Assembly (NCBI GenBank): GCA_024421095.1
Contig: JAHQYM010000011.1
Location: 1 to 45,153 of the forward strand
Reading direction: 5' to 3'
DNA from: Acidimicrobiia bacterium
GTDB lineage: Bacteria; Actinomycetota; Acidimicrobiia; Acidimicrobiales; Aldehydirespiratoraceae
DNA length: 45,153 bases
Shown here: in pieces, positions 10,617-32,434 of the stretch
Position numbering within the stretch: position 1 is the stretch's first letter
Layout of the letters: every line of letters starts with the position of its first letter
Notes under the pieces: generated by a model
The model's input: the letters and a program-made list of their open reading frames with translations, nothing else
The model's database searches: none
Told to the model about the DNA's origin: nothing
Position numbers and translations under genes: made by a program

Positions 10617-11144
10617 GCTGACACCTTATCACTGGTTTATGACATTACGCAACATTAAATATCTTAAAATATGTTTTGGTGAATGAATGCTCACCCGCAG
10701 TACTGGAGATTGCGGACCGAAACGGTTCCCGCTGGGGGTGCCTGTTATGCCGCTCGGCAGGATCTAATCGAACAGGACCGGAGCCGTGCAACTGATCGGC
10801 GGTTGCTTGGCCACGGGGGTCAGCAAGAGTCAACAGGGCCAGACTTTCCGCGCCGGTCGGCGCCGTGCTATGAAAGCTATGCGGCGGGGGTCGACAAGAG
10901 TCAACATGTGGGCCAGGCTCGCCGGCGACTGAGGCTCGGGTGGTCCCGAACAGCCGTTTCGCGCTATCGTCGGAGTATTCAGCGGTGCGCGGTTCGGTCG
11001 CAGTCGGACGACCCGCTAGCTTTTCTACGGCCTCCACTCGAACCGCCATTAGATTTCGGGGGTTGCACTTGGAGGGGTGGCGTATCCCGATGCTACACTA
11101 TGGGGGTCTGGAGATGTGGGCGGTATGCACAGTGTGCCGCTCCA

Positions 11145-12434
11145 ATGTTGGAATTGAGGAACACGGCTGTGTCGATTGTTGCGATTGGTTGTAGTCACCG
11201 GTCAACCCCGCTCGGCAAATTAGAGCGAATGACCGTGCGGGTTGACGACCTACCAAAAGCCCTGCACGGTCTAGCACAAACCGACCATCTCTCCGAGGTC
11301 GTGGTGCTATCCACCTGTAACCGAGTCGAGGTTTATGCGTTCGCTGAACGTTTCCATGGTGGCTACCGAGATGTGCGCGAGTTCTTAGCCCAACACGCTG
11401 GCTTGCCACCCGAAGACGTAGCTGACCATCTCTACGCCTACCACGATACCGAAGCGGTTCGGCACCTGTTCTCGGTTGCTTGTGGCCTTGATTCCGCGGT
11501 GGTCGGTGAACACGAAATACTCGGCCAGATACGCACGGCTTGGGAAACCGCAGTTGAGGAACAGACGGTCGGGTCGGTGATCGGCGGCCTATTCCGTCAC
11601 GCCCTGACGGTAGGCAAACGTGCCCGAACCGAAACTGCAATCGGGCGGGGCATAGCTTCTGTGGCACAAGCAGCGGTGGCGATTGCGGACGAGCGCATCG
11701 GCGGGATATCTGGGCGCATTGTTCTAGTGGTCGGTGCTGGTGAAGTAGCTGAAGGCACCGTCAAGTCTCTGGCCAAAACCCAAGCCGCCGAAATCGTGGT
11801 TGCAAACCGATCCTTTAGCCGTGCCGAGCAATTGGCGACACGTTGCGGCGGCACTGCGATTCACATCACCGAACTTCCAGATGCGCTAACGCGAGCTTCC
11901 GTGCTGGTCACAACCACAGGAGCTCAAGACCTTATTCTGCAAGCCACAGACGTGGCAACCGTAGTCTCAGTACGTGGCAACAAACCCTTAGTGATCGTTG
12001 ATGTAGCCGTTCCCCGAGATGTCGACCCGGCGGTGAGCCAGATCGAAGGAGTCACCCTCCTGAACATGGACGACATTGGCGATTTCGTTGACGATGGCTT
12101 AGAAAACCGTAATCTCGAGGTGGGTAACGCGGCGGCGATCGTAGATGCTGAAGTGCAGCGTTACCAATCGATTACCTCAGCTCGTGAAGTGGCACCGTTA
12201 ATCAGCGCATTGCGCCAGCAAGCAGACAACGTGCGGATTAAGGAACTTGAACGAGTTGCCCCCAAGTTGGGTGACCTCAGCACGGCGCATCTCGACACCG
12301 TCGAAATGCTCACCAAACGGATCATCAACAAGATGTTGCATGGCCCGTCAACACATCTAAAAGATGCCGCTGGGAGTGCTCGTGGAGACCGTTTAGCCGA
12401 ATCCTTACGTGACCTCTACGACCTTGAACCGTGA
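11145..12434 (+). CDS. hemA: Glutamyl-tRNA reductase
   Basis: VAIGCSHRSTPLGKLER, VVLSTCNRVEVYA, VVGEHEILGQI. Start set at ATG 11145; the upstream part of the listed ORF is not HemA-like. Confidence 0.95.
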   Translation: MLELRNTAVSIVAIGCSHRSTPLGKLERMTVRVDDLPKALHGLAQTDHLSEVVVLSTCNRVEVYAFAERFHGGYRDVREFLAQHAGLPPEDVADHLYAYHDTEAVRHLFSVACGLDSAVVGEHEILGQIRTAWETAVEEQTVGSVIGGLFRHALTVGKRARTETAIGRGIASVAQAAVAIADERIGGISGRIVLVVGAGEVAEGTVKSLAKTQAAEIVVANRSFSRAEQLATRCGGTAIHITELPDALTRASVLVTTTGAQDLILQATDVATVVSVRGNKPLVIVDVAVPRDVDPAVSQIEGVTLLNMDDIGDFVDDGLENRNLEVGNAAAIVDAEVQRYQSITSAREVAPLISALRQQADNVRIKELERVAPKLGDLSTAHLDTVEMLTKRIINKMLHGPSTHLKDAAGSARGDRLAESLRDLYDLEP

Positions 12435-12464
12435 GCTTGGTGTGACAAGAAAATCAAGAAAATA

Positions 12465-13259
12465 ATGTCTGCACCAACCTCAGTCAACCACGCTGGCAGG
12501 CGTGCTCTTGAGGGTGTGCGGGTAGTGGTCACGCGGGCTCAAGATCAAGCCGGTGGTCTAGTTGATGCGTTAGCAGAACACGGTGCCGAAACTGTGGTTG
12601 TGCCAGTCATCAAAGTCGTTGACCCCGAAGACAAAGGCGTGTGCCTAAGACAACACCTAAAGAGTTTAGGCACCGGCGACTGGCTCGTGATTACTAGCCC
12701 AAACGGTGCGAGCAAGGTTGCTGAAGCGCTTCGGGTGGTTCCATTAGCTGACGATGTGGCGGTTGCGGTTATCGGCCCGGGCACCAAGAGTTGTACCGAA
12801 GATTTGGGTATCAGGGTTGATCTAATCCCCGATGCGTCTATCGCTGAAGGTTTGCTTGAGGCGTTTCCGTCTCCAAACCAGCCCGACGCAAAGGTGCTGT
12901 TGGCCCGCGCTGCGGAAGCCCGCAGGGTGCTCCCCGAAGGTTTGAGAGCAAAGGGCTGGATCGTCCATGATGTGGCTGCCTACCAAACCCTGCGTGTTCC
13001 TGTTGAGGAAAGTAACATTCGTGCCTGCCGCCGAAGTGATATCGTGGCGTTCACCGCATCGTCAACAGTCACGAACCTGCACTCGGCGGTAGGTGTTGCC
13101 AACTTGCCCCCGGCCATCGCGGCTATCGGCCCGGCAACCGCCAAAACGGCTAGTGAGTTGGGGCTAACCGTAGATGTAGTAGCCGAGCCACACACCATCA
13201 ACGGTCTAGTAAAGGCGATAGTCGAATTTCAAACGAACGCTTCGGGGCGCTTATGCTGA
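12465..13259 (+). CDS. hemD: Uroporphyrinogen-III synthase
   Basis: GVRVVVTRAQDQAGGLVDALAEHGAETVVVPVI and DWLVITSPNG, next to other hem genes. Confidence 0.9.
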   Translation: MSAPTSVNHAGRRALEGVRVVVTRAQDQAGGLVDALAEHGAETVVVPVIKVVDPEDKGVCLRQHLKSLGTGDWLVITSPNGASKVAEALRVVPLADDVAVAVIGPGTKSCTEDLGIRVDLIPDASIAEGLLEAFPSPNQPDAKVLLARAAEARRVLPEGLRAKGWIVHDVAAYQTLRVPVEESNIRACRRSDIVAFTASSTVTNLHSAVGVANLPPAIAAIGPATAKTASELGLTVDVVAEPHTINGLVKAIVEFQTNASGRLC

Positions 13260-13383
13260 TCTGGGTATCAACACGAGCCGCACTGTCACACCCCCGCTCT
13301 TTACTTGCGGGACGGACCAATCGCGGCCCGGTCATTGATTCGGCCGCATCGTTACCATAAACTCGAATGTGAGAGGAAATCCT

Positions 13384-14214
13384 ATGCCCACCATTGTTGA
13401 CACCATCTATGGATCTCGCCTGCAAGCTAAACCGGTAGTGAAATGGCCGGGCGGGAAGCGGCGCCTCGTCAACCAAATCCTTGAACAATTCCCTGAACCG
13501 CCGATCCACAACTATTGGGAGCCATTCGCTGGCGGCGCGGCGATTTTTTTGGCAGTAGCAAACGATGTTTCGGCTTCTTCTATTATCAGCGACACCAACA
13601 GCCGATTAATCCAAACATATGTTGCGCTATCTATAAACGTTGAAAGGGTTGTTCAACGCTTAGCCGATCTCGCTCGACAACATTCCGAAGAGTTCTACTA
13701 TCAAGTGCGCAAAGAATACAACAATGGCCTCGATGAGATTGGGCAAGCAGCGGCGTTCATTTACATGAACCGCGTTGGCTTCAATGGTCTTTACCGCGAA
13801 AACCGCAAAGGCGAATTCAATGTTCCGTACGGTCATAGGCCATTTTCTTTCGATCCCGACAATTTCCGTGTAGCAGCTGCATTGTTTGCACAAGCGGATT
13901 TGAGGGTTGGCGATTTTTCGCAGGTGACACCGACTGGAAATGATGTTGTGTACTGCGACCCGCCGTACCATCGCACTTTCACTTCGTACACTGGCACTGG
14001 CTTTACGGATGTCGACCAGGTGCGTTTACGTGATGCTTGCCTAACTTGGCGCGATGCCGGGGCAACCGTCATTGTGAGCAACTCACTTACCGAATTCACG
14101 ATTGAGCTTTACCGGGATTTTGAAGTAAAATATCTTCAAGCAAATCGCCTCATCAGCAGAAATGGTGACGAACGACAGTCTGTAGTTGAAATGCTAGCGA
14201 TACTAAGGCCGTGA
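13384..14214 (+). CDS. Dam-family (D12 class) DNA adenine methylase
   Basis: VKWPGGKRRLV, YWEPFAGGAAIFLA, YMNRVGFNGLYRENRKGEFNVPYG, VVYCDPPYHRTFT. Confidence 0.93.
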   Translation: MPTIVDTIYGSRLQAKPVVKWPGGKRRLVNQILEQFPEPPIHNYWEPFAGGAAIFLAVANDVSASSIISDTNSRLIQTYVALSINVERVVQRLADLARQHSEEFYYQVRKEYNNGLDEIGQAAAFIYMNRVGFNGLYRENRKGEFNVPYGHRPFSFDPDNFRVAAALFAQADLRVGDFSQVTPTGNDVVYCDPPYHRTFTSYTGTGFTDVDQVRLRDACLTWRDAGATVIVSNSLTEFTIELYRDFEVKYLQANRLISRNGDERQSVVEMLAILRP

Positions 14215-14663
14215 ACGCCAAACCAAACGCCACCGGAAACAACGCTGAACAATTCGTGATCGGACAAATACACGCAGCAGAATTTGAGGAAGTGGACCGT
14301 AAAGAGATACTGGATTACGGGCGTCTACCGGGTCAACGAATATATGCGGCGCAAGTAGACATAGGGCAAAGCATATATGGAACCAAACGTCGCGTCGATC
14401 TCGTCCTTCGTTGCGATAAATATCCAGAAGGGCTAATAATTCAAATTAAGTGGCAACAATCACCAGGCAGTGTCGATGAAAAATTTCCATACGAGGTTGA
14501 ATGCATCAAACAAGACAAGCTCCCAACGGTCATCGTCATTGAAGGCGGAGGGTACAAAGATGGCGCGTTAGATTGGTTGCATTGTCAAGAGAGTAAGGTT
14601 GAACGCCTGCTGGGGGTGCTCAACTTTGGAGACTTCTCGCGTTGGCTGCAAAAAGTGCGCTGA
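14211..14663 (+). CDS. Putative PD-(D/E)XK-type Type II restriction endonuclease
   Basis: GTG start overlaps the methylase TGA. RVDLVLRCDKYPEGLIIQIKWQQ fits a D-x(n)-(E/Q)-x-K nuclease core. Confidence 0.7.
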   Translation: MNAKPNATGNNAEQFVIGQIHAAEFEEVDRKEILDYGRLPGQRIYAAQVDIGQSIYGTKRRVDLVLRCDKYPEGLIIQIKWQQSPGSVDEKFPYEVECIKQDKLPTVIVIEGGGYKDGALDWLHCQESKVERLLGVLNFGDFSRWLQKVR

Positions 14664-14685
14664 TGAATATTGCTGAGCACGCTTG

Positions 14686-15609
14686 ATGTGGGCGGCAACG
14701 CGCAATAGCCCTTTGGCCTTGTGGCAAACCCGTTATGTCGGGTCTTTGCTTAGCGCTGCAGGCGTGGTGGATCGTCTTCACGAACTGCATGTGTCAACCC
14801 AAGGTGACCAGCAACAAAACGCACCCATACACACCATGGGCGGTAAAGGAGTTTTCGCAAAAGAAGTGCAACATGCGGTACTTGACGGCCGAGCCGACCT
14901 GGCCGTGCATTCGGCTAAAGACCTGCCGTCCAGCACACCCGAAGGCTTATGCATAGCCGCAATAACGCCACGCGGCGATACACGTGACGCTCTCGTTGGC
15001 ACCCAGCTCAGAGACCTACCGCACCAAGCACGCATCGCAACCGGTTCAGCGAGACGGCGAGCCCAGTTGGCTTGGCACCGACCAGACCTAGAATTTTTTG
15101 AGTTGCGAGGCAACATCACCACCCGGCTACGAAAAGCCGAGAATTATCACGCAATCGTGATGGCAGTAGCAGCCATTCAACGCCTCGAACTAAAACCTGA
15201 GATAGTTGAACCGCTCGACCATCAACTAATGGTTCCCCAGGTTGCCCAAGGCGCGATAGCTGTGGAATGCCGCGCTGAAGACTCAGCAACCCGAACCGCT
15301 TTGAAGACGATAGAAGACCCCGTTGCCCGTGTCACGGTAGATGCCGAAAGAGCATTCTTAGCCGAACTAGGCGGTGACTGCACGCTGCCCGCAGGTGCAA
15401 TAGCGGTATTTGATGACACCAACCCTGGCCACGAAATTGAAATGTTGGCGACACTGGCCTCATTAGATGGCCAAACACTGTTGCGTCACCAAAGCGTAGG
15501 TAAGGCTGTAGACCCGGCAGCGCTAGGACGAAACGTGGCCCGCCACCTGCTTGACAAAGCGGGAGGCAACGCATTGCTAGCAAACCTAAGAACACCAGAA
15601 ACTAGCTAA
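14686..15609 (+). CDS. hemC: Porphobilinogen deaminase (hydroxymethylbilane synthase)
   Basis: ATRNSPLALWQT, GGKGVFAKEVQHAVLDGRADLAVHSAKDLPS, ATGSARRRAQL. Confidence 0.95.
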   Translation: MWAATRNSPLALWQTRYVGSLLSAAGVVDRLHELHVSTQGDQQQNAPIHTMGGKGVFAKEVQHAVLDGRADLAVHSAKDLPSSTPEGLCIAAITPRGDTRDALVGTQLRDLPHQARIATGSARRRAQLAWHRPDLEFFELRGNITTRLRKAENYHAIVMAVAAIQRLELKPEIVEPLDHQLMVPQVAQGAIAVECRAEDSATRTALKTIEDPVARVTVDAERAFLAELGGDCTLPAGAIAVFDDTNPGHEIEMLATLASLDGQTLLRHQSVGKAVDPAALGRNVARHLLDKAGGNALLANLRTPETS

Positions 15610-15948
15610 AACCACAAGGCCGAACTCGCATCCGCAATTTCAACCTAAGAGCGTGCGCGGGTTGACCTCGCGCACCGCCGCGACCGAACGAAGCCGTGGC
15701 CAGAGCGGCCCGTGAGCGCAGCCAACAAGAGCAGGACACGACAGCGTTCCGCGCACCGAAGATGTTCAATCCGCGCACTCTCAAAGCGAACCGAGCGCCA
15801 TCAACAGCACCGATGAAGCAATAGTTACGATCCGCACCCACGCTGCCCCAACAAGACGATAAGATACCTAATGCTCAGCCACAAGAGCTTAAACGCTGTG
15901 ATGCGCTGCGCGCTCGAAACCGCGAATACATGGGGGGAACCGAAGAAA

Positions 15949-16608
15949 ATGTTGAGATTCGCTGAAGAACTTGTGTTGTTGTTGTTGCGTGACGATGACG
16001 GGAAGTTCGTTCACGTGCCTAATTGGTTGTTAGACAGAATCCTTGCTGGAGCCGTGCTGATGGACTTAGCGATGGAATATCGCCTAGACACAGACCCAGA
16101 AAGGCTAGTGTTGCTAGACGACACACCGACCGGCGACAGCCTGCTAGACCCCACACTGGCGCGTGTCGCAGCCGAACCGCAAGGCGAAAATGATGCTCGC
16201 TACTGGGTCGAACAAGAAGCCCAACACGGTGCCGGTATCCGTGAAGAAGTGCTGAGGCGACTAGTCGAGAAGGGCATTCTCGAACGCCAAGACGACCGGT
16301 TCCTGTGGGTGTTCAAATCTCGCCGCTACCCGATCGTTGATGGCAAAGTCGAACGGGAAGTGAAACTGCGGATTATGGGTGTGCTGTTCAGCGACGAAAT
16401 CCCCGACCCACGTGATGTGGTAATCATCTGCCTAGCGGACGCTTGCGGACTATTCAGAGAACTGCTACCGAAACGAGAACTCGACCAAGCGTCAGTGCGC
16501 ATTGAGCAAGTCCGCAAACTCGATCTTATCGGCCAAGCAATGTCACAAACGATCTACGACATGGGGATGTGGCTCGCTGCTAGCCGGATCGAAGGCCGAA
16601 TGTTCTAA
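15949..16608 (+). CDS. GPP34 (GOLPH3/VPS74-like) family protein
   Basis: MLRFAEELVLLLLRDDDGKF and LLDRILAGAVLMDLAMEYRL. ATG at 15949 preceded by gggggg-rich RBS. Confidence 0.8.
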   Translation: MLRFAEELVLLLLRDDDGKFVHVPNWLLDRILAGAVLMDLAMEYRLDTDPERLVLLDDTPTGDSLLDPTLARVAAEPQGENDARYWVEQEAQHGAGIREEVLRRLVEKGILERQDDRFLWVFKSRRYPIVDGKVEREVKLRIMGVLFSDEIPDPRDVVIICLADACGLFRELLPKRELDQASVRIEQVRKLDLIGQAMSQTIYDMGMWLAASRIEGRMF

Positions 16609-21439: not shown

Positions 21440-22369
21440 TCAGTTCGGGGCTTCACGAGGTGGTGCCGGGTTGTCGTCAAAGACTTTTTGTACATCACTG
21501 AACGACAGATCACCAGAAAGCGGAAACGTCGAGGCACGCGCTGCGGTAGCAGCGAGCGGTTTACGGTTGCCACGGGCTCGCGAATCGGCTTCACGACGAC
21601 CCGCCGTAAATCGAAAATAGCGAAGCGTGATAAGCGCCCAAAGATAAAATCCGCCCACAACTTTCATTACCGCTCCGGCAGCTTGCTGATCGTCTGTAGG
21701 CGAAATTCCCCAAAGCCCCACGCTGTGATCGTATGCCGAATAGACCACACCATTAGCGAACGTCAGCCAGCCGGCAGGTACGGTTGGCACGATCGAGCTA
21801 ATAAACAGGTAGACCATTTTGCCCGGTTCACTCAACTGCAACTCAGGCAATGGCCCTACTACTGGGAACCACATCAACAAAGCCGAGAAAAAGACCGCTA
21901 AATGGATTGCGTAATGAAAAACACCATTTTCCACAGACAAGTTCACGACCGCCGACCAATGCGAAAGGATTTGTAAGGCGTTGAATATCACGGCTGCGGT
22001 AATCGGTTTGGTCAACACCTTCAAAATACGCGAACTCAAACCACCATCTATCACAATCAATCTGGCCAACCATTCCGGCATCGCTAAGAGCATCAACGGG
22101 GGCACGATAAAAGCGATCAACAAATGTTGCCCCATATGCACTGAATAAAGGTACTCTTCGGCGATGTCATGCATGGGCCAATCCGCTGCTACCCACAAAA
22201 GAAAGACACCAAACGCGAAGCAACGTTTCTGTCTTTTGGTGACAATGGTTTGCCCGTCTGGCACCACCAAAGGGCCAATGTGGTGCACCGAGTAATACCC
22301 CAGAAAAATTATGCCGGCGATCAACAACCAAACCGCGGGATGAGCCTCAAATTCCCACGGCCCACTCAT
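21440..22369 (-). CDS. ctaG: Cytochrome c oxidase assembly protein, caa3_CtaG family
   Basis: Multi-TM protein with MGQHLLIAFIVPPLMLLAMPEW and MWFPVVGPLPELQLSEPGKMVYLF. Confidence 0.88.
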   Translation of the reverse strand: MSGPWEFEAHPAVWLLIAGIIFLGYYSVHHIGPLVVPDGQTIVTKRQKRCFAFGVFLLWVAADWPMHDIAEEYLYSVHMGQHLLIAFIVPPLMLLAMPEWLARLIVIDGGLSSRILKVLTKPITAAVIFNALQILSHWSAVVNLSVENGVFHYAIHLAVFFSALLMWFPVVGPLPELQLSEPGKMVYLFISSIVPTVPAGWLTFANGVVYSAYDHSVGLWGISPTDDQQAAGAVMKVVGGFYLWALITLRYFRFTAGRREADSRARGNRKPLAATAARASTFPLSGDLSFSDVQKVFDDNPAPPREAPN

Positions 22370-22372
22370 CGC

Positions 22373-22741
22373 TCAAACCCAGAACTCAAAAGCAGTGAGC
22401 GTAGCAACATAAACGGCCACCGCGAGCAGCAAACCCCCAACAAACATTTTCGCAAAGATTGAGTTGTCGAACTTGAGATGCATAAACCATGTGGCCACCA
22501 ACCAGAACTTGACAACCATCATCAATAGCAACGAAGGGACAAGTAGTTGCCCCCAGTTGTACACCGTCTCAAAATAGGTAAAAACTTCAACCGCAGTAAT
22601 CGCCGCAAGTATCAAAGCAATCTTGATGTAAGCCCAGTCCGACGGGTGTTTGTGCTCGTGTGCTGCGGCATTTTCGTGGTTGTCAGCTTGCTCCGTGGAA
22701 TGAGTGGCCGTGTCGGTACTCGTTGTGTTGGTAGCGGTCAT
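22373..22741 (-). CDS. Cytochrome c oxidase subunit IV (prokaryotic COX4 family)
   Basis: YIKIALILAAITAVEVFTYF...LLMMVVKFWLVATWFMHLKFD. Confidence 0.85.
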   Translation of the reverse strand: MTATNTTSTDTATHSTEQADNHENAAAHEHKHPSDWAYIKIALILAAITAVEVFTYFETVYNWGQLLVPSLLLMMVVKFWLVATWFMHLKFDNSIFAKMFVGGLLLAVAVYVATLTAFEFWV

Positions 22742-22756
22742 TTTCCCTCCAATTCC

Positions 22757-23392
22757 CTAAGCCGGAATCAGATAAATCACGGTGAATATAAAAATCCACA
22801 CAATATCTACGAAGTGCCAATACAACCCCGCGATCTCGACAGTTTCGGCGTGCTGTGGCCTTAACTTGCCTTGCCAAGAGGCAACGAACAAAGACATCAA
22901 CATCACAATTCCCAAGCTGACATGCACCCCATGAAAACCGGTAAGCGTGAAAAAGGCCGAACTAGCCGGGTTGTTCGTAAAGCCAACATCTTCACGCAAG
23001 AAAGCCGTGAACTCGTATACTTGGCCGCCAATAAACACACCACCGAGCAAACTCGTGGTCAGCAACCAAATCCTGAACCCGAAATTGTCGCCACGGGTGA
23101 TCGCGGCCAAAGCCAACACCATCGTCAATGAACTCATCAGTAAGACAAAGGAACTTACAGACGTGAAGGGGATGTCGAAAACGTCTGTTGGTATCGGTAA
23201 GTTGTCTGGGCCTCGGCGGGTTTTGTAAAGCAGGTACGTAGAGATCAAACCGCCAAAGAGCAAGCATTCAGACCCCAGAAATAACCACATCGCCAACTTC
23301 GTGTTGGAAATACCCGTAGAAGGCCCGTGTTCAGAAGATTCCTGATCGCTGTGGTCGTCAACGGTTGCCGTTTCGAGGGTTGCGTTGCTCAC
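22757..23392 (-). CDS. ctaE: Cytochrome c oxidase subunit III
   Basis: KLAMWLFLGSECLLFGGLI, TGFHGVHVSLG, GLYWHFVDIVWIFIFTVIYL. Confidence 0.95.
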   Translation of the reverse strand: MSNATLETATVDDHSDQESSEHGPSTGISNTKLAMWLFLGSECLLFGGLISTYLLYKTRRGPDNLPIPTDVFDIPFTSVSSFVLLMSSLTMVLALAAITRGDNFGFRIWLLTTSLLGGVFIGGQVYEFTAFLREDVGFTNNPASSAFFTLTGFHGVHVSLGIVMLMSLFVASWQGKLRPQHAETVEIAGLYWHFVDIVWIFIFTVIYLIPA

Positions 23393-25440
23393 TCGTAGCC
23401 TCCTTGCGTGCTCGGCGTTCCCACAGTTGCGAGTTCACCATCGCTGTCGCCGCTGCCACCGCTGCCGTCGTTGTCACCGTCGCCATCATTGTCTTCGTGG
23501 TGCTGGCCATGATCGGCATCTGGGTCATCAACTGGTTCAAGTGCCCATGCATACATCGCCATACCAACCATGAGTCCGCCGGGAACACACAACCACAAGT
23601 TGAAGATTAGCCCGTAACCGATCAACGGCAAACCCAACGCCAACACCAACGGCCAAAAAGACGGGGAAGGCAAATGCACACCTCTGGCCGAACCGTCTTG
23701 CGCAGCCGACTGCACACTAGAAATCCGTACCACATTTCCATCATCGTCAATGGCGTATTTGCGGTGCCACCACTCATCTAGGCCGTCAACCGTTGGAACT
23801 TCGTCAAAGTTATGTTCGGGAACCGGCGATGGCACCATCCACTCCAAACTACGCGCGTCCCAAGGGTCGGGGCCCGGGGGAGGCAAGTCGGCTGCCTCGC
23901 GTTTTGACCTCCAAATGTTGTGGAAGAAAACCACAACTGACAATGCAATGATGAACGAACCAATCGTGGCCACCAAGTTCCAGAACTCAAAACCGAAACC
24001 TGCCGAATAGGTGTCGATGCGGCGGCTCATCCCTTGCAACCCGAGCACATGCATGGGGCCGAAGGTTAAGTTGAAGCCGATCAACATCAACCAAAAGTTG
24101 AGTTTCCCTCGGCGCTCATTGAGCAGGTAACCGAAAACCTTCGGCCACCAAAAGTACAGGCCACCCATCAAGCCAAGCACCCCACCGCCAAAGATCACAT
24201 AATGGAAGTGCGCCACGATGTAATATGTGTCTGTTTGTTGAGTGTCGGCCGGAGCCAAAGCGTGGGTCACCCCCGATAACCCACCAATCGTAAACATGCC
24301 CACGGTGCTCACAGCAAACAACATCGCCGTGGTGTAACGAATTTGCCCGCCCCACATGGTGGCGATCCAATTCAAGATCTTCACCCCTGTCGGTACCGCG
24401 ATAAACATTGTTGACAACGAAAATGCCGCAACAGAAATTGGGCCGATGCCAGAAACGAACATGTGATGCGCCCAAACACCCCAACCCATAAACCCAATCG
24501 CTATTCCCGAAAAGACCATAAAGGAATAGCCAAAAATCGGCTTACGGCTAAACGTTGGAATTATTTCGGAAACCACACCAAATGCCGGCAAAATAATGAT
24601 ATAGACCTCTGGATGTCCGAATATCCAGAAAAGATGCTGCCATAACAATGGATCACCACCCATATCTGGATTAAAGAAATCCGAGCCAAATAGGCGGTCG
24701 AACATCAGCAGAAACAAAGCAACCGTTATCACTGGCAAAGCAAACAGCAACAAAAACTGGGTGATTAAAAGCATCCAAGTAAGCACTGGCATGCGGAACA
24801 AATCCATCCCCGGTGCCCGCATGTTCAAACAAGTGACGATCAAGTTGATGGCTGAAACTAGCGAAGCGATACCAGCAATCAACAAACCAATCGCATAAAA
24901 ATCGACCCCATGGCTAGGCGAGAATGCCAAGCCGCTATTGGGTGAGTAACAGAACCACCCACAATCCGCGCCACCACCACCGACAATCCAAGAACTATTT
25001 AAGAAAATCGCGCCGGATAACCAAATCCAATAGGACAGCGCATTCAGTCTCGGGAAAGCCACATCCCTAGCACCGATCTGCAACGGAATCAGATAGTTCG
25101 CAAAGGCTGCCGCCAAAGGCATGATAAACAAGAACACCATGGTCACGCCGTGCATGGTGAAGACTTGGTTATAAACGTCCGCCGAGAGCACCCCACCGTT
25201 AGGCACCGCCAGTTGCAAGCGAATCAGTAGCGCTTCCACACCACCAACCACAAAAAATACCATGGCCGAAACGCCATACATAATCCCGATCTTTTTGTGG
25301 TCGACGGTGCTCAACCAATCCCGCCAACCTCGACCACCCTGCGGACGGGTCAGCACCCCGAGTGGGCGCTCCACAAAGGGTGTGACACCAGATTCGAGTT
25401 CCAAAGGCTTCTCGGTTACAGTTGCGTTTGTAGGGGTCAT
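23389..25440 (-). CDS. ctaD: Cytochrome c oxidase subunit I (canonical, all ligands present)
   Basis: MHGVTMV, WIFGHPEVY, WAHHMFV, VAHFHYV. Acidic/His/Gly-rich C-terminal tail. Confidence 0.97.
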   Translation of the reverse strand: MTPTNATVTEKPLELESGVTPFVERPLGVLTRPQGGRGWRDWLSTVDHKKIGIMYGVSAMVFFVVGGVEALLIRLQLAVPNGGVLSADVYNQVFTMHGVTMVFLFIMPLAAAFANYLIPLQIGARDVAFPRLNALSYWIWLSGAIFLNSSWIVGGGGADCGWFCYSPNSGLAFSPSHGVDFYAIGLLIAGIASLVSAINLIVTCLNMRAPGMDLFRMPVLTWMLLITQFLLLFALPVITVALFLLMFDRLFGSDFFNPDMGGDPLLWQHLFWIFGHPEVYIIILPAFGVVSEIIPTFSRKPIFGYSFMVFSGIAIGFMGWGVWAHHMFVSGIGPISVAAFSLSTMFIAVPTGVKILNWIATMWGGQIRYTTAMLFAVSTVGMFTIGGLSGVTHALAPADTQQTDTYYIVAHFHYVIFGGGVLGLMGGLYFWWPKVFGYLLNERRGKLNFWLMLIGFNLTFGPMHVLGLQGMSRRIDTYSAGFGFEFWNLVATIGSFIIALSVVVFFHNIWRSKREAADLPPPGPDPWDARSLEWMVPSPVPEHNFDEVPTVDGLDEWWHRKYAIDDDGNVVRISSVQSAAQDGSARGVHLPSPSFWPLVLALGLPLIGYGLIFNLWLCVPGGLMVGMAMYAWALEPVDDPDADHGQHHEDNDGDGDNDGSGGSGDSDGELATVGTPSTQGGYE

Positions 25441-25441
25441 C

Positions 25442-26704
25442 TCAGTTCACCTCAGTTGCCAAAATCTGGGCTCTGGTCGGCTCTTGGCCAAGCGTGGCCA
25501 AAAAGGCAATCACGTCGCTGATCTGCCGCTCAGACAACCCCATGTCGGGCATCCCACGGGGCAATTCACCATCAGCGAGATCGTTCGCGTAGTTTTCCTT
25601 CACTTCGTTAGGGTTGCGTATCCACGCAGCAAGTTGATCGTCATTGAGCGAATAGTCGGAGTTGTAAAGGTTGAATATCCCGCCTGCGAACGTAGTGCGG
25701 CTAGCGAAATGGGTAAGGTCTGGTGCCGAACCAGCGTAAGTCTCAGCGCCGTTGTAGTCCGCATCGTTAAGTCCCCTCACCAGATGACAACTCGCGCAAT
25801 AGGTTGAGAACACCTCGGCACCGCGTCCTTGCGCCGAATCTTCGTTCGTGGGCAAATTGGCGGGTTTCATCTGCGAGTCGATCCAAGTCTGAAAATCCGC
25901 TGGTGTAACCGCAACTGCCTGCATCCTCATACGACTATGCGACAAACCACAAAATTCCGTACACTGCCCGAAGTAAACGCCCGGTTCGTCCGCCGACAAC
26001 TTCCACGGTGTGTACAAGCCTGGAACAGCGTCTCTTTTTCCGTTGAGCGCTGGAATCCAGTGTGAATGAATCACGTCACGAGAGGTCACAATCAGCTCGA
26101 TCTCTTCTCCCGCGGGAATTACCATCTGGCCCGAAGTAACGATGTCGGCTGGCGGCAGATCCCAAGGGTCACCAAGATCATCTGTAGTAATGTCTTGCGA
26201 TAGGTAGTAACGGTATTCCCACCACCACTGCTGACCAACCACAACCACTCGAGGCTCCCAAGTTTGAGCCTGTCCGTCAACCTGAACCTCCATGGCATTG
26301 GCTTCGGTGCTATTGATCGCTAGATGCGTCACCAAACTGGCTACCGCAACGATCACCATGATCACGAAAGGCCCGAGCGTCCAGCCAATTTCCAAAGTGT
26401 TATTGTGCGAAACCTGTTTCGGGAATTCGCCTTGATAATCCTCGTTTGCTGGAACCCGATTCTTCACTGCCAGCCAAACCAAAGCACCACAAACCAGCAC
26501 CAGCACCACACCCGCAACGATAAAGACCGGTACCGCCAAATCATTAATCTGGCGAGCTGTCTCGCCTTGATCTTGAAAGGTGTCTAACTCAGCATCAGCA
26601 GCGCAACCGACCAACAACAAGCCAAAACCGGCCAGCGTCAGCGTCGACCACAAGCGCCGGGCAAACGCCCAACGAGACTCCTCGGTCCTCATTGCTTCAC
26701 TCAC
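25442..26704 (-). CDS. ctaC: Cytochrome c oxidase subunit II with fused C-terminal cytochrome c domain (caa3 type), lipoprotein
   Basis: Lipobox LLLVGCAAD; CuA motif GQCTEFCGLSHSRM; CASCH heme c motif. Confidence 0.95.
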   Translation of the reverse strand: MSEAMRTEESRWAFARRLWSTLTLAGFGLLLVGCAADAELDTFQDQGETARQINDLAVPVFIVAGVVLVLVCGALVWLAVKNRVPANEDYQGEFPKQVSHNNTLEIGWTLGPFVIMVIVAVASLVTHLAINSTEANAMEVQVDGQAQTWEPRVVVVGQQWWWEYRYYLSQDITTDDLGDPWDLPPADIVTSGQMVIPAGEEIELIVTSRDVIHSHWIPALNGKRDAVPGLYTPWKLSADEPGVYFGQCTEFCGLSHSRMRMQAVAVTPADFQTWIDSQMKPANLPTNEDSAQGRGAEVFSTYCASCHLVRGLNDADYNGAETYAGSAPDLTHFASRTTFAGGIFNLYNSDYSLNDDQLAAWIRNPNEVKENYANDLADGELPRGMPDMGLSERQISDVIAFLATLGQEPTRAQILATEVN

Positions 26705-27494
26705 CTTGGTGTGCCTCCACAGATTCGGGGTTGTTTGATTCTAAATCTATTTCGTGGTGCTCGAAATCCCGTTCACCCGTGACTGTTGCCACAACCCCAC
26801 CAGCAAGAACCGCCACCGCCACCGCCAAAACTGTGGCAGACAAAAGGTTTTTGTTGACTCGCGGTCTACTCACCAACAAAACCGCCAAAGCCAAAATCAC
26901 CACCGACACAACCCCAGCCACAACCACCGCCCCAAGTTTCGAAGCCGCCAACAGAATCCGGCTAATCGCCAAAACCCCCAAAGCCACAATCCCTGCGCCC
27001 AAAACCGGGATCTCAATAGGTGCCATAATCCGATTGCGAAGCACTCTGTTGGCTTCACGGTCGCCGGTAGCGCGATCAGACCACGCATCCATCAACCATT
27101 CAACCGCCACGACCGCGCAAAGAACCAAGCCAGCCACAAAAACCGCCGTATGCAAAACCAACCCGATGGCCATCGCGCCAACACCGAAAGCGCCAACAAC
27201 CGGCCAAAAACTAGCAGTCACCAAACTGTTCGTAGGGATCTGTTCAACCCCCATGTAATGCGCTTGTGCAGCCGGATCAGCATCCCGAAATGAAACAAGA
27301 AACATCGCCACCGACATCGATACGAAAGCTAGACCGAACAACATCGAGTAGCCGAGATGCTCGCCCACCCCACCTTTCCAACCCATCGACAAGGGGCCAA
27401 GATGGTTGCCCCCAGTGGTGTACCCATAAAACACTGCACCCGTAATGAGTGCCATCCCCAACCCGAAAAAAAACTTAAAACCGGTAGTAAACAT
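26697..27494 (-). CDS. Multi-TM membrane protein, weakly CtaF (actinobacterial oxidase subunit IV)-like
   Basis: N-terminal FFFGLGMALITGAVFYGYT and SFWPVVGAFGVGAMAIGLVLHTAVFVAGLVL resemble actinobacterial CtaF; extra TM segments follow. Stop overlaps ctaC start. Confidence 0.6.
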   Translation of the reverse strand: MFTTGFKFFFGLGMALITGAVFYGYTTGGNHLGPLSMGWKGGVGEHLGYSMLFGLAFVSMSVAMFLVSFRDADPAAQAHYMGVEQIPTNSLVTASFWPVVGAFGVGAMAIGLVLHTAVFVAGLVLCAVVAVEWLMDAWSDRATGDREANRVLRNRIMAPIEIPVLGAGIVALGVLAISRILLAASKLGAVVVAGVVSVVILALAVLLVSRPRVNKNLLSATVLAVAVAVLAGGVVATVTGERDFEHHEIDLESNNPESVEAHQGE

Positions 27495-27499
27495 CTGCC

Positions 27500-28087
27500 C
27501 TACTTATTGATATAGACGAGGAAGTAGACAACGGCCCACATCAACACAACCGTATGCCAAAACAGCGCCGCCGCAGACACAGCTTCGGCTCTTTTCGGCC
27601 CGAACTGGCCAGCCAAAGCACGCACAAACGTAAACGTGATAAAAAGTACCGCCGCAATCAAAAACACAATAAAAGTTCCGTTAATCACAAAAAACAGAAA
27701 CTCGGCGTTACTAGCAGCCAACGCGAAACCAGTATCGTTGATGATGAACCAAAGCTGATTGAATATCGCCACCCCAAACAAAGTGGTCAACGCCAAAGCC
27801 ACATAAGCATTGACACGATCTTCGGCATTGATCGCCTGCACCGCCCACTGAACCGTGAACACTGACAATACCAACGTCCAAAAGACGAACCCCGATGGAC
27901 CTAACTCAACCGTTCCCTCAGCGAACCACTCCATCGCCTCATGGCGCGCCCTCGCCCTTTCCCGAACGTATACCGCCACCACCGACAAGAAAAACATGAA
28001 AGCCGCGGCGCAGCCAAAAACCGTGCCCACCAGCAGACTACGAGGTCGATAAATTTGCGCGGGCAGAAACCGCGTTGTGGTAATCAT
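27500..28087 (-). CDS. Heme-copper oxidase subunit III-like paralogue lacking the typical HGxHV motif
   Basis: FWHTVVLMWAVVYFLVYIN aligns with YWHFVDIVWIFIFTVIYLI of ctaE; HGVHV is replaced by an NGTFI-like segment. Confidence 0.7.
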   Translation of the reverse strand: MITTTRFLPAQIYRPRSLLVGTVFGCAAAFMFFLSVVAVYVRERARARHEAMEWFAEGTVELGPSGFVFWTLVLSVFTVQWAVQAINAEDRVNAYVALALTTLFGVAIFNQLWFIINDTGFALAASNAEFLFFVINGTFIVFLIAAVLFITFTFVRALAGQFGPKRAEAVSAAALFWHTVVLMWAVVYFLVYINK

Positions 28088-29922
28088 CAGGAATCCTCTT
28101 CAGTGTCGTTCACCGAATCTAACAATGGAACCTCAGAGACAACGCGCGCTGGCGCATCCAAAAAATTGCCCAACGGCGGAGGTGAAGGCGTGGCCCACTC
28201 CAAAGTCAAACCACCAAAAGGATTGTCACTAAGCGTCTCAGTATTGCCTTGCGGTTTCAGCCAAGCCGCAACAACAGCCAAAACACCCAACACGATCAAC
28301 AACGCGCCCACCGCGGCGCAAGCGTTCATCACCTCAACAAGATTCTCATTAGAAGGAACGCTCACCAAAGACACCGAAGCAGCGGAATACTGATACGCCA
28401 ACGCGCCAGCTCCAAAGAAACCGCTAACAAAATCAGCACCACCAAGCAACACAGCCCCAAGCGCGATATTGAAAATCGCCGAACGACCCAAACCACCCGG
28501 CAAAAGGACACCAGCAATCTTTGGTGCCCAAAACCAAATCCCCGCAATCCCCGCAAGCAGCGCCGCAAACCACACCAAATTCATAACCGCAGTAACCGTT
28601 GTACGTCCGCCCAAATCCCATGGCTGCACAACACGAACCAACCCCGCAACCGTAGCCGCAAGCAACACCAACACCGCCGCAAACGCAGCCAAACCATGCA
28701 CCGACAACAAGCCAGCGAGATTTAGTTTTTTGGTTCTCTCAAGACTCGCAAGACTCGGTTCCAAAGCCGCAGCAGCGTCCGCCCCCGGACGCGCAAACGT
28801 GGCCGCAACTGCCGCTACCGAACCCAGCACCGGCAAGGCCACCGAAAGCCCAAACACCACAAACACAAACTGCTCATCGTGGCTATCACCTTGAAACCAC
28901 GGTTGGCTCCAACCACCAACCGACAACAACCCAAAGAAACCGATAAGAGCCATGGCCGCAGCGTGCTGTGCATGGCGGCGCTTCGCAACCACTGCTGCAA
29001 CCTGACCAAAAACCCCAAGCACGGGAATAGCCAACGCGTAAATCTGCGGTTGTTCAATCAACCAACCCAACTGTGCGAACACAGCATCGCTGCCCTCAAT
29101 ATTCCCAAACTCGCCCGGCCCACCACGCAAATCAAAATAGATCAGCACAAGATTGCCCAACGCCAACGGCAACGTCAACAACCAAACAGCCGCAGCCACC
29201 AGCATCGACCAAGCAAACAAAGGCACCCGCAACAAATTCATACCCGGTGTGCGCAACGACACCACTGTTGTAGCAACACAAACCGAAGCCACCACGATCG
29301 CGCCGATCAGCAGCGCGGTACCCACCAACGTCAACGCAATCGCATCAGCTTCACTAGGGCTCACGCCATCAAGAGCACCCCAACCACCGCCCGCCAAAAC
29401 CGCAACAACCGTGATACCCGCTCCGATCATGAACAACCACGCAGCCCCGTGTGCAGCCCGAGGAAAAGCAATATTCGTAGCTCCAACCTGCATCGGCACT
29501 ACCACCGTCGCCAAACCCACAAACAACGGCAACACCACCAACAACACCATGCCCAAGCGATAAAGGCCAAAAAACTGGAAATAATTGTTGGTCCCCGCAA
29601 AAATGTCGTCTGGCGACGAATTGATGTCCTCAATTCTGAGCAGCACCCCCACAACTGCAACCGCCAACAACATCAACAAACTAGACCGCAACCACAAACG
29701 GCCAATGCGCTTATGGTCGGTAGTTGTCAAGGCATCGAAAACCCCGCCCACTTCCGAAGCAACAGGGCTCTCAAAAGAAACCGAAGGGGCGGAAGCGGCA
29801 GATGCGGCAGATGTGGGCGACACTAAAGACTCGGGATCGCTAGGCAAGGTGCCTGTTGCAGTTGCTGAATCGGTCATCGTCATTGGTGCAATAATCCTCC
29901 GCACACTCTCGGCGCGGCGCAC
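28087..29922 (-). CDS. Heme-copper oxidase subunit I-like paralogue apparently lacking all heme/CuB histidine ligands
   Basis: Collinear with ctaD (TTTDHKRIGRLWL; VVPMQVGATNIAFPR; SLRTPGMNLLRVPLFAW; WFWAPKIAGVLLPGG) but with non-His residues at ligand motifs. Start probably at internal MTMTDSATAT (about 29883). Confidence 0.85.
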   Translation of the reverse strand: MRRAESVRRIIAPMTMTDSATATGTLPSDPESLVSPTSAASAASAPSVSFESPVASEVGGVFDALTTTDHKRIGRLWLRSSLLMLLAVAVVGVLLRIEDINSSPDDIFAGTNNYFQFFGLYRLGMVLLVVLPLFVGLATVVVPMQVGATNIAFPRAAHGAAWLFMIGAGITVVAVLAGGGWGALDGVSPSEADAIALTLVGTALLIGAIVVASVCVATTVVSLRTPGMNLLRVPLFAWSMLVAAAVWLLTLPLALGNLVLIYFDLRGGPGEFGNIEGSDAVFAQLGWLIEQPQIYALAIPVLGVFGQVAAVVAKRRHAQHAAAMALIGFFGLLSVGGWSQPWFQGDSHDEQFVFVVFGLSVALPVLGSVAAVAATFARPGADAAAALEPSLASLERTKKLNLAGLLSVHGLAAFAAVLVLLAATVAGLVRVVQPWDLGGRTTVTAVMNLVWFAALLAGIAGIWFWAPKIAGVLLPGGLGRSAIFNIALGAVLLGGADFVSGFFGAGALAYQYSAASVSLVSVPSNENLVEVMNACAAVGALLIVLGVLAVVAAWLKPQGNTETLSDNPFGGLTLEWATPSPPPLGNFLDAPARVVSEVPLLDSVNDTEEDS

Positions 29923-30018: not shown

Positions 30019-30915
30019 TCAGAAACCACTGCGAACCACCTCATCAATCGCCATCGCTGCGAACAACAAAGTGACATAGGTTATCGACCAACCAAACAAG
30101 CGCATCGCAAGTTGCGGTTCAGGGTTGCGCAAGACTCTCAACGCCAACGCCGCAAAGACCGCACCCAACAAGACCGCCGAACCAAAATAAAGCCAACCCA
30201 TGTTCGCCACTGGAGCAAACAGCAAAGTCAAACCCCAAAGCAACAAGGTATACACGAGAATACGACTTGCCGTCTTCTTGAGGCTCACCACCACCGGCAA
30301 CATCGGCACATCGGCAGCTTGATAATCGTCCTTGTAGCGGATCGCCAACGCCCAAAAATGCGGTGGCGTCCAAACGAAAATGATCGCAAACAAAACCAAA
30401 GGCGGCCAATCAAGAGAGTTGGTAACCGCAGACCAGCCAACCAGAACCGGTACCGCCCCCGCCGCACCTCCAATCACAATGTTGCTTTTTGAGGTGCGCT
30501 TCAACCACAACGAATAAACAAACACATAAAACAAAGTTGCCGCAACTGCCAAAACCGCGGACAACAAGTTGACCATCCCCCATAACCAAGCGAACGCAGC
30601 AATTTCCAGAAAAATAGCGAACAACAACGCTTGGCGCGGCGTGACCTCACCAGTCACCAACGGACGGCCCTTGGTGCGCTCCATGAGACCATCAATATCT
30701 CGATCGATGAACATGTTTGCTGCGTTCGCTCCGCCCGCCGCGAGCGTTCCACCCAGCACAGTTGCGAACATCAACCAAATGGAGGGCAACCCCGCGGCAG
30801 CAACAACCATCGTGGGAACAGTCGTGACCAACAACAATTCAATGATGCGTGGCTTGGTCAACGCCACGAACGCCATCAGACGCGACCTCTCATGCACTCG
30901 AGCAACGCTACTCAC
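30019..30915 (-). CDS. ctaB: Protoheme IX farnesyltransferase (heme O synthase)
   Basis: LTKPRIIELLLVTTVPTM, GGANAANMFIDRDIDGLMERTKGRPLVTG, WTPPHFWALAIRYKDDYQAADVPMLPVV. Confidence 0.95.
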   Translation of the reverse strand: MSSVARVHERSRLMAFVALTKPRIIELLLVTTVPTMVVAAAGLPSIWLMFATVLGGTLAAGGANAANMFIDRDIDGLMERTKGRPLVTGEVTPRQALLFAIFLEIAAFAWLWGMVNLLSAVLAVAATLFYVFVYSLWLKRTSKSNIVIGGAAGAVPVLVGWSAVTNSLDWPPLVLFAIIFVWTPPHFWALAIRYKDDYQAADVPMLPVVVSLKKTASRILVYTLLLWGLTLLFAPVANMGWLYFGSAVLLGAVFAALALRVLRNPEPQLAMRLFGWSITYVTLLFAAMAIDEVVRSGF

Positions 30916-31040: not shown

Positions 31041-32003
31041 GTGAACTTGACCGCACGGCTGCGCGCTATCGCCTATGCACCAATTAGCCCCGACCGTTAC
31101 CAACGCTGGACACGTGGCGCGCTGTGGTCATTAACCGTGATCGTGGTATCTGGCGGAGCCGTGCGGCTCAGCGGGTCAGGCCTCGGCTGCTCCGACTGGC
31201 CCAACTGCGAAGAAGACCAGTTTGTTGCCGACCTCGAATATCACGCACTCATCGAATTCGCCAACCGCCTCTTTACTGGTGTCGTAGCGGTTGCGGTAGT
31301 CCTCGCCGTACTTGGTTCGCTGCGCCGCTCACCACGGCGAGCCGATTTGATCGCGTGGTCTTTCGGGCTCGTAGCGGGAGTTGTCGCGCAAATCGTTTTG
31401 GGAGCGCTACTCGTGCGAACCGAACTCGACCCGAGGTTCACAATGGGACATTTCTTATTGAGCATGGTCTTGCTGGCCAACGCTGCGTTGCTCGTAGATT
31501 TGGCCGGACGCGACGACCTAGCCGCACGGCGCAGACCAGGACCCTTGAGCCGCACAACCCGGGCCATCACCACGCTCTCAGCGGTGTTGCTCGTTAGCGG
31601 CACAATCGTCACCGGTTCAGGCCCGCACAGCGGCAGCGACGAAGCCGAAGTCGCAGCCAGACTCCCCTTTCTGGTGCGGGAAGTCACCCGGATACATAGC
31701 ATCATTGCCATAGTGTTGCTCGTCAGCGTATTGTGGCTGATCCGCGCCGCTCACCTGCACCAACAAACCGAAGCGCGCCGCCGAGCGGAAATCGCTTTAA
31801 GCCTGCTTATCGCTCAAGCGGCAATTGGTTACTGGCAATATTTTGCGGGGGTGCCAGTGCTGCTCGTTGGATTCCACATCCTCGGCGCGTCACTAAGTTG
31901 GATTGCGATTGTGCGCCTACACTTAGCCACAGGCATCGACGCTCGCAACGAATCCGAGGAAACCAACAAAACAACCCCCCAACAGGCCGCAAAACCCGGT
32001 TAG
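31041..32003 (+). CDS. ctaA: Heme A synthase
   Basis: GGAVRLSGSGLGCSDWPNC, HALIEFANRLFTG, GHFLLSM, TGSGPHSG. Divergent from ctaB. Confidence 0.92.
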   Translation: MNLTARLRAIAYAPISPDRYQRWTRGALWSLTVIVVSGGAVRLSGSGLGCSDWPNCEEDQFVADLEYHALIEFANRLFTGVVAVAVVLAVLGSLRRSPRRADLIAWSFGLVAGVVAQIVLGALLVRTELDPRFTMGHFLLSMVLLANAALLVDLAGRDDLAARRRPGPLSRTTRAITTLSAVLLVSGTIVTGSGPHSGSDEAEVAARLPFLVREVTRIHSIIAIVLLVSVLWLIRAAHLHQQTEARRRAEIALSLLIAQAAIGYWQYFAGVPVLLVGFHILGASLSWIAIVRLHLATGIDARNESEETNKTTPQQAAKPG

Positions 32004-32063: not shown

Positions 32064-32136
32064 GCCCCGTTCGTCTAGCGGCCTAGGACGCTGGCCTTTC
32101 ACGCCGGTAACACGGGTTCAAATCCCGTACGGGGTA
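32064..32136 (+). tRNA. tRNA-Glu (TTC)
   Basis: gccccgt...cctttcacg...ggttcaaatcc...acggggta; anticodon ttc; cloverleaf arms visible. Confidence 0.95.
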
Positions 32137-32256
32137 CTTCTAGGTTGCATCAACGCCGCGGCCACCGCTGCGGCGTTGATTTCAGTGGTGGGTGATCGGG
32201 TTGCTATTTTCGGCAACTCGGCATACCGTTTCGAGTCGCACGGTTCGTCCGTGAAG

Positions 32257-32334
32257 GGTCCTGTAGATCAGTTTGGAGTGATCGCCACCCTGTCAAGGTG
32301 GAGGCCGCGGGTTCAAATCCCGTCAGGACCGCCA
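32257..32334 (+). tRNA. tRNA-Asp (GTC)
   Basis: ggtcctgtagatcag...ccctgtcaaggt...ggttcaaatcccgtcaggaccgcca; anticodon gtc; CCA encoded. Confidence 0.93.
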
Positions 32335-32358
32335 CGCATTCTAATCTGGATGCTGTGG

Positions 32359-32434
32359 GGTCGGGTAGCTCAGTTGGCAGAGCGGCCGCCTGAAAAGCGG
32401 TAGGTCACCGGATCGACGCCGGTCCCGACCACCA
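32359..32434 (+). tRNA. tRNA-Phe (GAA)
   Basis: ggtcgggtagctcagttggcagagc...cctgaaaagc...cccgaccacca; anticodon gaa; CCA encoded. Confidence 0.95.

Follow-up and report, generated by a model that had tools for sequence, protein, structure and literature searches.

A ligand-free COX1 homolog with CtaE- and CtaF-like partners in the caa3 oxidase operon of Acidimicrobiales: a candidate structural module

Genes of the caa3 operon

The window, by which we mean the whole stretch of DNA analyzed (45,153 nucleotides), carries on its reverse strand a conserved run of genes that begins with ctaB (30019–30915), encoding heme O synthase. Three genes follow, psD (28087–29922), psE (27500–28087), and psF (26697–27494), which we call the module. 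Behind them lie the genes of a caa3-type cytochrome c oxidase: ctaC (25442–26704), encoding an intact subunit II with the CuA motif and the cytochrome c domain of the caa3 type; ctaD (23389–25440), the intact catalytic subunit I with all its ligands; ctaE (22757–23392), an intact subunit III; cox4 (22373–22741), subunit IV (COX4_pro); and ctaG (21440–22369), a caa3-type assembly factor. The genes of the module are tightly spaced, since psD and psE share 1 nt, 5 nt separate psE from psF, and psF overlaps ctaC by 8 nt. A homolog of ctaA (31041–32003), named by sequence reading as heme A synthase, lies on the forward strand and is divergently oriented, as it is at most related loci. Three tRNA genes in tandem (32064–32431, forward strand) lie beside it.

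We collected operon regions from about 100 genomes, which gave 105 psD loci with 103 distinct sequences. As far as the contigs reach and the genes were detected, the order ctaB-psD-psE-psF-ctaC-ctaD-ctaE-cox4-ctaG is kept on one strand at all 105. Co-occurrence was scored in a sample of 296 genomes of the class that were at least 90% complete, with caa3-type ctaD taken as a match with E below 1e-220. All 102 sampled Acidimicrobiales genomes with a caa3-type ctaD carry the module. The module was seen without caa3 in two genomes only (G185 and G316, loci L091 and L128), both of which end at contig edges, and genome G073 has no module. At the sister-order loci examined, an orthologous caa3 operon (ctaC-D-E-cox4-G) keeps its catalytic genes in the same order but lacks psD, psE, and psF. 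In principle, therefore, the caa3 oxidase does not require the module.

The open reading frame of psD is unbroken. A sequence-only reading of this DNA had described an intact frame of 611 codons; the frame is indeed intact, but translation probably starts at ATG 29883 (residue 14, with GGAGGA upstream) and not at GTG 29922, which shortens the protein to 598 aa. The same reading had recognized a COX1 homolog here, and two analyses agree with it. The Pfam COX1 model matches psD with E 2.4e-32 (112.8 bits, gathering cut-off 34.8), and psD is predicted to fold like COX1. The AlphaFold2 model, built on a 49-sequence alignment, reached a pLDDT of 86 and a pTM of 0.90. The matches that Foldseek listed for this model belong to COX1 chains of bo3, of mycobacterial and Corynebacterium CtaD, and of Thermus caa3. 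The best E was 4e-20, and the top matches had a TMq of 0.79–0.81; mycobacterial CtaD are the best relatives of psD with a solved structure. As modeled, psD is a genuine COX1 homolog with the COX1 fold.

Only two COX1 genes were found in the genome of the window, psD and the intact ctaD, which lies about 4.4 kb further downstream. Cytochrome b of the same genome (8138–9753 of locus L162, G000:C5) is split into two genes of 265 and 266 aa, whereas in classical actinobacteria QcrB is one long protein; the split genes adjoin a Rieske-like protein, CxxCH-containing proteins, and nuo-like genes.

Residues lost from psD and its partner subunits

The alignment columns of psD were set with MAFFT (95, later 208 COX1 sequences) and, independently, by comparing profiles of psD and the adjacent ctaD in hhalign (E 6.5e-54), and the two agree. 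Residue pairs are given below in Rhodobacter numbering first and in psD numbering second. The helix II ligand of low-spin heme a, His102, is replaced with Tyr121 (29560–29562). The CuB ligand His284 is replaced with Gln291 (29050–29052), and the CuB ligands His333/His334 with Gln340/Pro341 (28900–28905). His411, the heme a3 ligand, becomes Val446 and His413, a ligand of heme a, becomes Asn448 (28579–28587). All these codons lie on the reverse strand, as does that of the D-channel residue Asp132, which is replaced with Asn150 (29473–29475). Glu286 is changed to Gln293, Tyr288 is retained as Tyr295, and Lys362 and the Arg481/Arg482 pair are missing as well. psD thus has none of the six metal-ligand histidines. 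Both alignments place the replacements where the sequence-only reading had seen them, and they also agree with it that Glu286 is lost while Tyr288 stays and that the D-channel Asp132 has become Asn. The adjacent ctaD (23389–25440) retains every ligand and channel residue that psD lacks. COX1 scaffold motifs are still present in psD.

It is the metal ligands that define heme-copper oxidases. psD fails the tests of the catalytic subunit I of a heme-copper oxygen reductase, as the six His and D132/E286/K362 are absent. Assignment to NO reductase (NorB-like) or to another heme-copper oxidase class was also rejected: the ligand positions are not His, and the family matches only models of the CtaD/QoxB/CyoB type.

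The neighboring psE encodes a degenerate, CtaE-like subunit III. The best model for it is NF050119, that of the actinobacterial aa3 CtaE, which 29 of 30 members of its family match; the window psE scores 47.7 bits against it, under the cut-off of 190. Three features that 94 intact CtaE keep invariant or nearly so, a Glu, the HGxH motif, and an Asp, are missing from psE. By sequence, homology of psE to subunit III is clear, but the invariant COX3 residues are lost.

The third gene, psF (TM265), encodes 265 aa with a CtaF-like N-terminal part and a helical extension. The profile of its family matches mycobacterial and Corynebacterium CtaF over positions 5–132 (E 7e-5 to 3e-3). CtaF are also its top Foldseek matches, which are weak (E 0.02–0.06). 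The Pfam model PF12270 stays under its cut-off against psF, and the window psF alone has no Pfam match. In sister orders (L152, L158, L159), a gene near the caa3 operon encodes a separate membrane protein of about 250 aa, which matches the psF profile at positions of about 146–239, in the C-terminal helical part. psF may therefore have arisen as a fusion between CtaF and such a protein. The module has no second subunit II. Since psE resembles subunit III and psF matches CtaF, the degenerate set is, as judged by these matches, composed of CtaD, CtaE, and CtaF homologs together (subunits I, III, and IV). The proposal of a non-catalytic subunit I thus stands as regards the missing ligands, but not as regards a lone subunit, because psE and psF belong to the same set. 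By descent the module belongs to the COX1, CtaE, and CtaF families; as an enzyme it fails their defining tests.

Orthologs, descent, and selection

COX1 matches were found in 60 of 61 genomes of relatives, and clear psD orthologs occur throughout the family and in many other families; the named relatives are MAGs of Acidimicrobiaceae/Acidimicrobiia. No catalytically competent psD occurs at any of the 105 loci. H333 and H334 are never His, and D132 and K362 are lost everywhere (105/105). None of the six His is kept at 66 loci, the maximum kept is three, and E286 is retained at five. Gln is preferred at two of the former CuB positions, His284 (64/105) and His333 (85/105). The neighboring ctaD retains all these residues wherever its sequence is present (103/103). 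Scoring the His columns in orthologs had been suggested with the original observation, and it returned normal ligands at none of the 105 loci. A sequencing or annotation error in psD was rejected, because the orthologs at these loci across Acidimicrobiales, with 103 distinct sequences, share the losses.

We found no other conserved membrane His in the psD orthologs that could take over heme ligation. The one widespread His (88/105) belongs to an N-terminal DHK motif that is common to canonical ctaD. Nor did we see a new conserved charge in the membrane part of the orthologs. An ion-conduit role, which had been listed among the possible functions, is therefore unsupported, since the proton-pathway residues are lost as well.

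In a tree rooted on E. coli CyoB, the psD sequences form a single clade (100/100) that joins the classical actinobacterial aa3 CtaD (100/99), and the operon's own ctaD falls in a separate caa3 clade. A single psD clade was again obtained in an unrooted tree of 97 sequences. By this phylogeny psD is a descendant of the classical actinobacterial aa3-type CtaD lineage, although its exact attachment point is less certain than its monophyly because the branches are long. A tandem duplication of the neighboring ctaD was rejected as the origin of the module, given that psD and the operon ctaD sit in separate clades.

In the two first-branching psD lineages (families f8/f10/f11/f15, and f33) the CuB His are all absent, and His102 and His413 are kept. 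These two residues bind low-spin heme a axially. In the f8/f10/f11/f15 group, His411 is kept as well. Close to the heme a site, a helix I Arg is present in all basal copies but one, which has Lys. The psF proteins of the same lineages end in a cupredoxin domain (PF13473, lowest E 1.6e-11), whose His, Cys, His, and Met are spaced as in a type-1 copper site. This copper site is present at seven loci (L059, L061, L063, L064, L090, and L123 of these lineages, and L060 of family f14), all of which keep the His102/His413 pair; three more have the pair but no copper site. Among the loci without the pair it was found at none of 60 that could be scored, 35 not being scoreable by the motif used. The psF of the window and of most relatives has no cupredoxin site. 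By eye, the tail of the Ilumatobacter-type psF (L138, L108) resembles a ligand-free cupredoxin.

The simplest history suggested by these sequences is a stepwise loss, in which CuB would have gone first, because basal psD keep the heme a His and the blue-copper domain but no CuB ligands. Both heme sites, the high-spin and the low-spin one, would have been lost later, as would the copper domain. Judged by its residues, the present window is the fully cofactor-free end of this series. The module of the basal lineages may still be redox active, and the word structural may therefore fit only the derived majority, this window included.

The psD frame is open at each of the 105 loci, and the module has become fixed in about 20 families. 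Median dN/dS (Nei-Gojobori, 28–30 pairs that are not independent, including some codons upstream of the true starts, which would raise the values) was about 0.17 for psD (28 pairs), 0.15 for psE, and 0.14 for psF, compared to 0.13 for ctaC, 0.10 for ctaE, and 0.06 for ctaD. The value for psD is far from 1, as expected if selection acts on it. Evolutionary rates covary between psD and CtaD (partial r 0.70) and between psD and CtaG (0.64), and the covariation is thus not specific to CtaD.

A structural role in caa3 and its alternatives

We favor, with modest confidence, the reading that psD, psE, and psF form a cofactor-free, permanent structural module of the operon's caa3-type cytochrome c oxidase. 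It is suggested by the intact fold, the retained partners, the missing subunit II, the coupling of the genes, their co-occurrence with caa3, and the purifying selection. According to this scheme, the membrane subunits CtaD, CtaE, and CtaF of an aa3 oxidase would have lost all catalytic cofactors and become a permanent part of caa3. psD would fold as a 12-helix COX1 and pair with psE and psF in the manner of the ancestral subunits; subunits III and IV are indeed co-retained and co-degenerate with it. This pseudo-protomer would pack against the catalytic CtaC-CtaD-CtaE-Cox4 complex and shape or stabilize it, for oligomerization, complex III docking, or electron entry, much as the heme-less CydB supports CydA. 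Physical assembly with caa3, the lack of a replacement cofactor, and the exact structural job are what we infer here. A structural partner, scaffold, or anchor kept by selection had already been suspected from the sequence, and the COX1 fold, the absence of orthologs with normal ligands, and the dN/dS of psD all speak for it. More tentatively, we propose a hetero-oxidase, in which a working caa3 protomer would bind a pseudo-complex-IV protomer that carries no cofactors and whose subunits I, III, and IV come from another oxidase lineage. Basal lineages would have kept a CuB-less electron-transfer intermediate that combines heme a and blue copper.

The nearest known system, by the phylogeny of psD, the family of psE, and the CtaF match of psF, is the actinobacterial aa3 CtaD/CtaE/CtaF, complex IV of the bcc-aa3 supercomplex. 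psD has the same fold, but the module differs in lacking the CuB, heme a, and heme a3 ligands, the proton-channel residues, the COX3 invariant residues, and a subunit II of its own, and in being embedded in a caa3 operon. By analogy, the closest precedent for a heme-less companion of a catalytic homolog would be CydB of cytochrome bd, which folds like CydA and, in place of heme, carries ubiquinone (PMC6853902). CydB is likewise a heme-less homolog of a catalytic subunit and makes up a structural half of its enzyme. However, it belongs to an unrelated family, is a single subunit, and has been proven to co-assemble; the module has three subunits and a co-assembly inferred from its genes.

As the main alternative, the module could serve as a docking adaptor, whose pseudo CtaD-E-F surface would link caa3 to the bc complex or to another donor. 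This is attractive in that QcrB of C. glutamicum docks on exactly CtaDEF (PMC8795186) and the module descends from the aa3 lineage to which this CtaDEF belongs. We nevertheless consider it unlikely. A classical long QcrB was not found in the four module-bearing genomes examined (G000, G085, G042, and G273), and docking of complex III is weakened because only a split cytochrome b, of about 270 aa, was seen there, and also accompanies caa3 in sister orders without the module.

It is still less probable that the three proteins act as an assembly factor, that is, as a chaperone platform outside the finished oxidase for insertion of heme A and copper into CtaD and CtaC. The module is flanked by ctaB/ctaA, which serve to make heme A, and by ctaC-ctaD, and ctaG follows further downstream; this arrangement would suit such a role, as would the putative copper-binding cupredoxin domain of basal psF. 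However, a chaperone would hardly seem to need three large subunit homologs, the region already has ctaB, ctaA, and ctaG, and the window and most relatives have neither the known metal-binding residues in psD nor the cupredoxin site in psF.

We give even less credit to a membrane role apart from any oxidase, in which the module would bind a new ligand such as a quinone or a lipid, or act as a conduit, and have nothing to do with the structure of caa3. The vacated heme cavities could hold a quinone, as in CydB (PMC6853902), and Gln is strongly preferred at the two former CuB positions; yet the linkage to caa3 in 102/102 genomes and at 105/105 loci favors a caa3-related role, and the membrane part shows no new conserved charge. 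Finally, a neutral relic, a decaying duplicate awaiting loss, would fit the divergence and fast evolution of psD (mean distance 1.30, against 0.40 for ctaD), but it is effectively refuted by a dN/dS below 0.6 in all 28 measurable pairs and disagrees with the open frames across so many families, which leaves it hardly any probability.

Returning to the structural module, we found no description of the psD family in the open-access literature, with subscription papers outside the search. A published classifier of heme-copper oxidases discards sequences without the six His (PMC3084760), and the family would therefore stay hidden from surveys. The module is unusual among heme-less companions in comprising three heme-copper oxidase subunits and in having its intermediates preserved. 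A three-subunit pseudo-oxidase under selection across an order would show that the scaffold of complex IV can be reused without its chemistry, and it offers a natural series of intermediates in which CuB was lost first. Non-catalytic roles of the oxidase scaffold (oligomerization, complex III docking, assembly) become testable in relatives, some of them culturable. Counts of COX1 homologs overestimate the terminal oxidases of Acidimicrobiales.

Elsewhere in the window, a heme-biosynthesis cluster extends over 10683–15609. Between its hemD and porphobilinogen deaminase genes lies a gene for a D12-class adenine-specific DNA methyltransferase (13369–14214), and a GPP34 (Golgi phosphoprotein 3 family) domain protein is encoded downstream of the heme genes (15871–16608).
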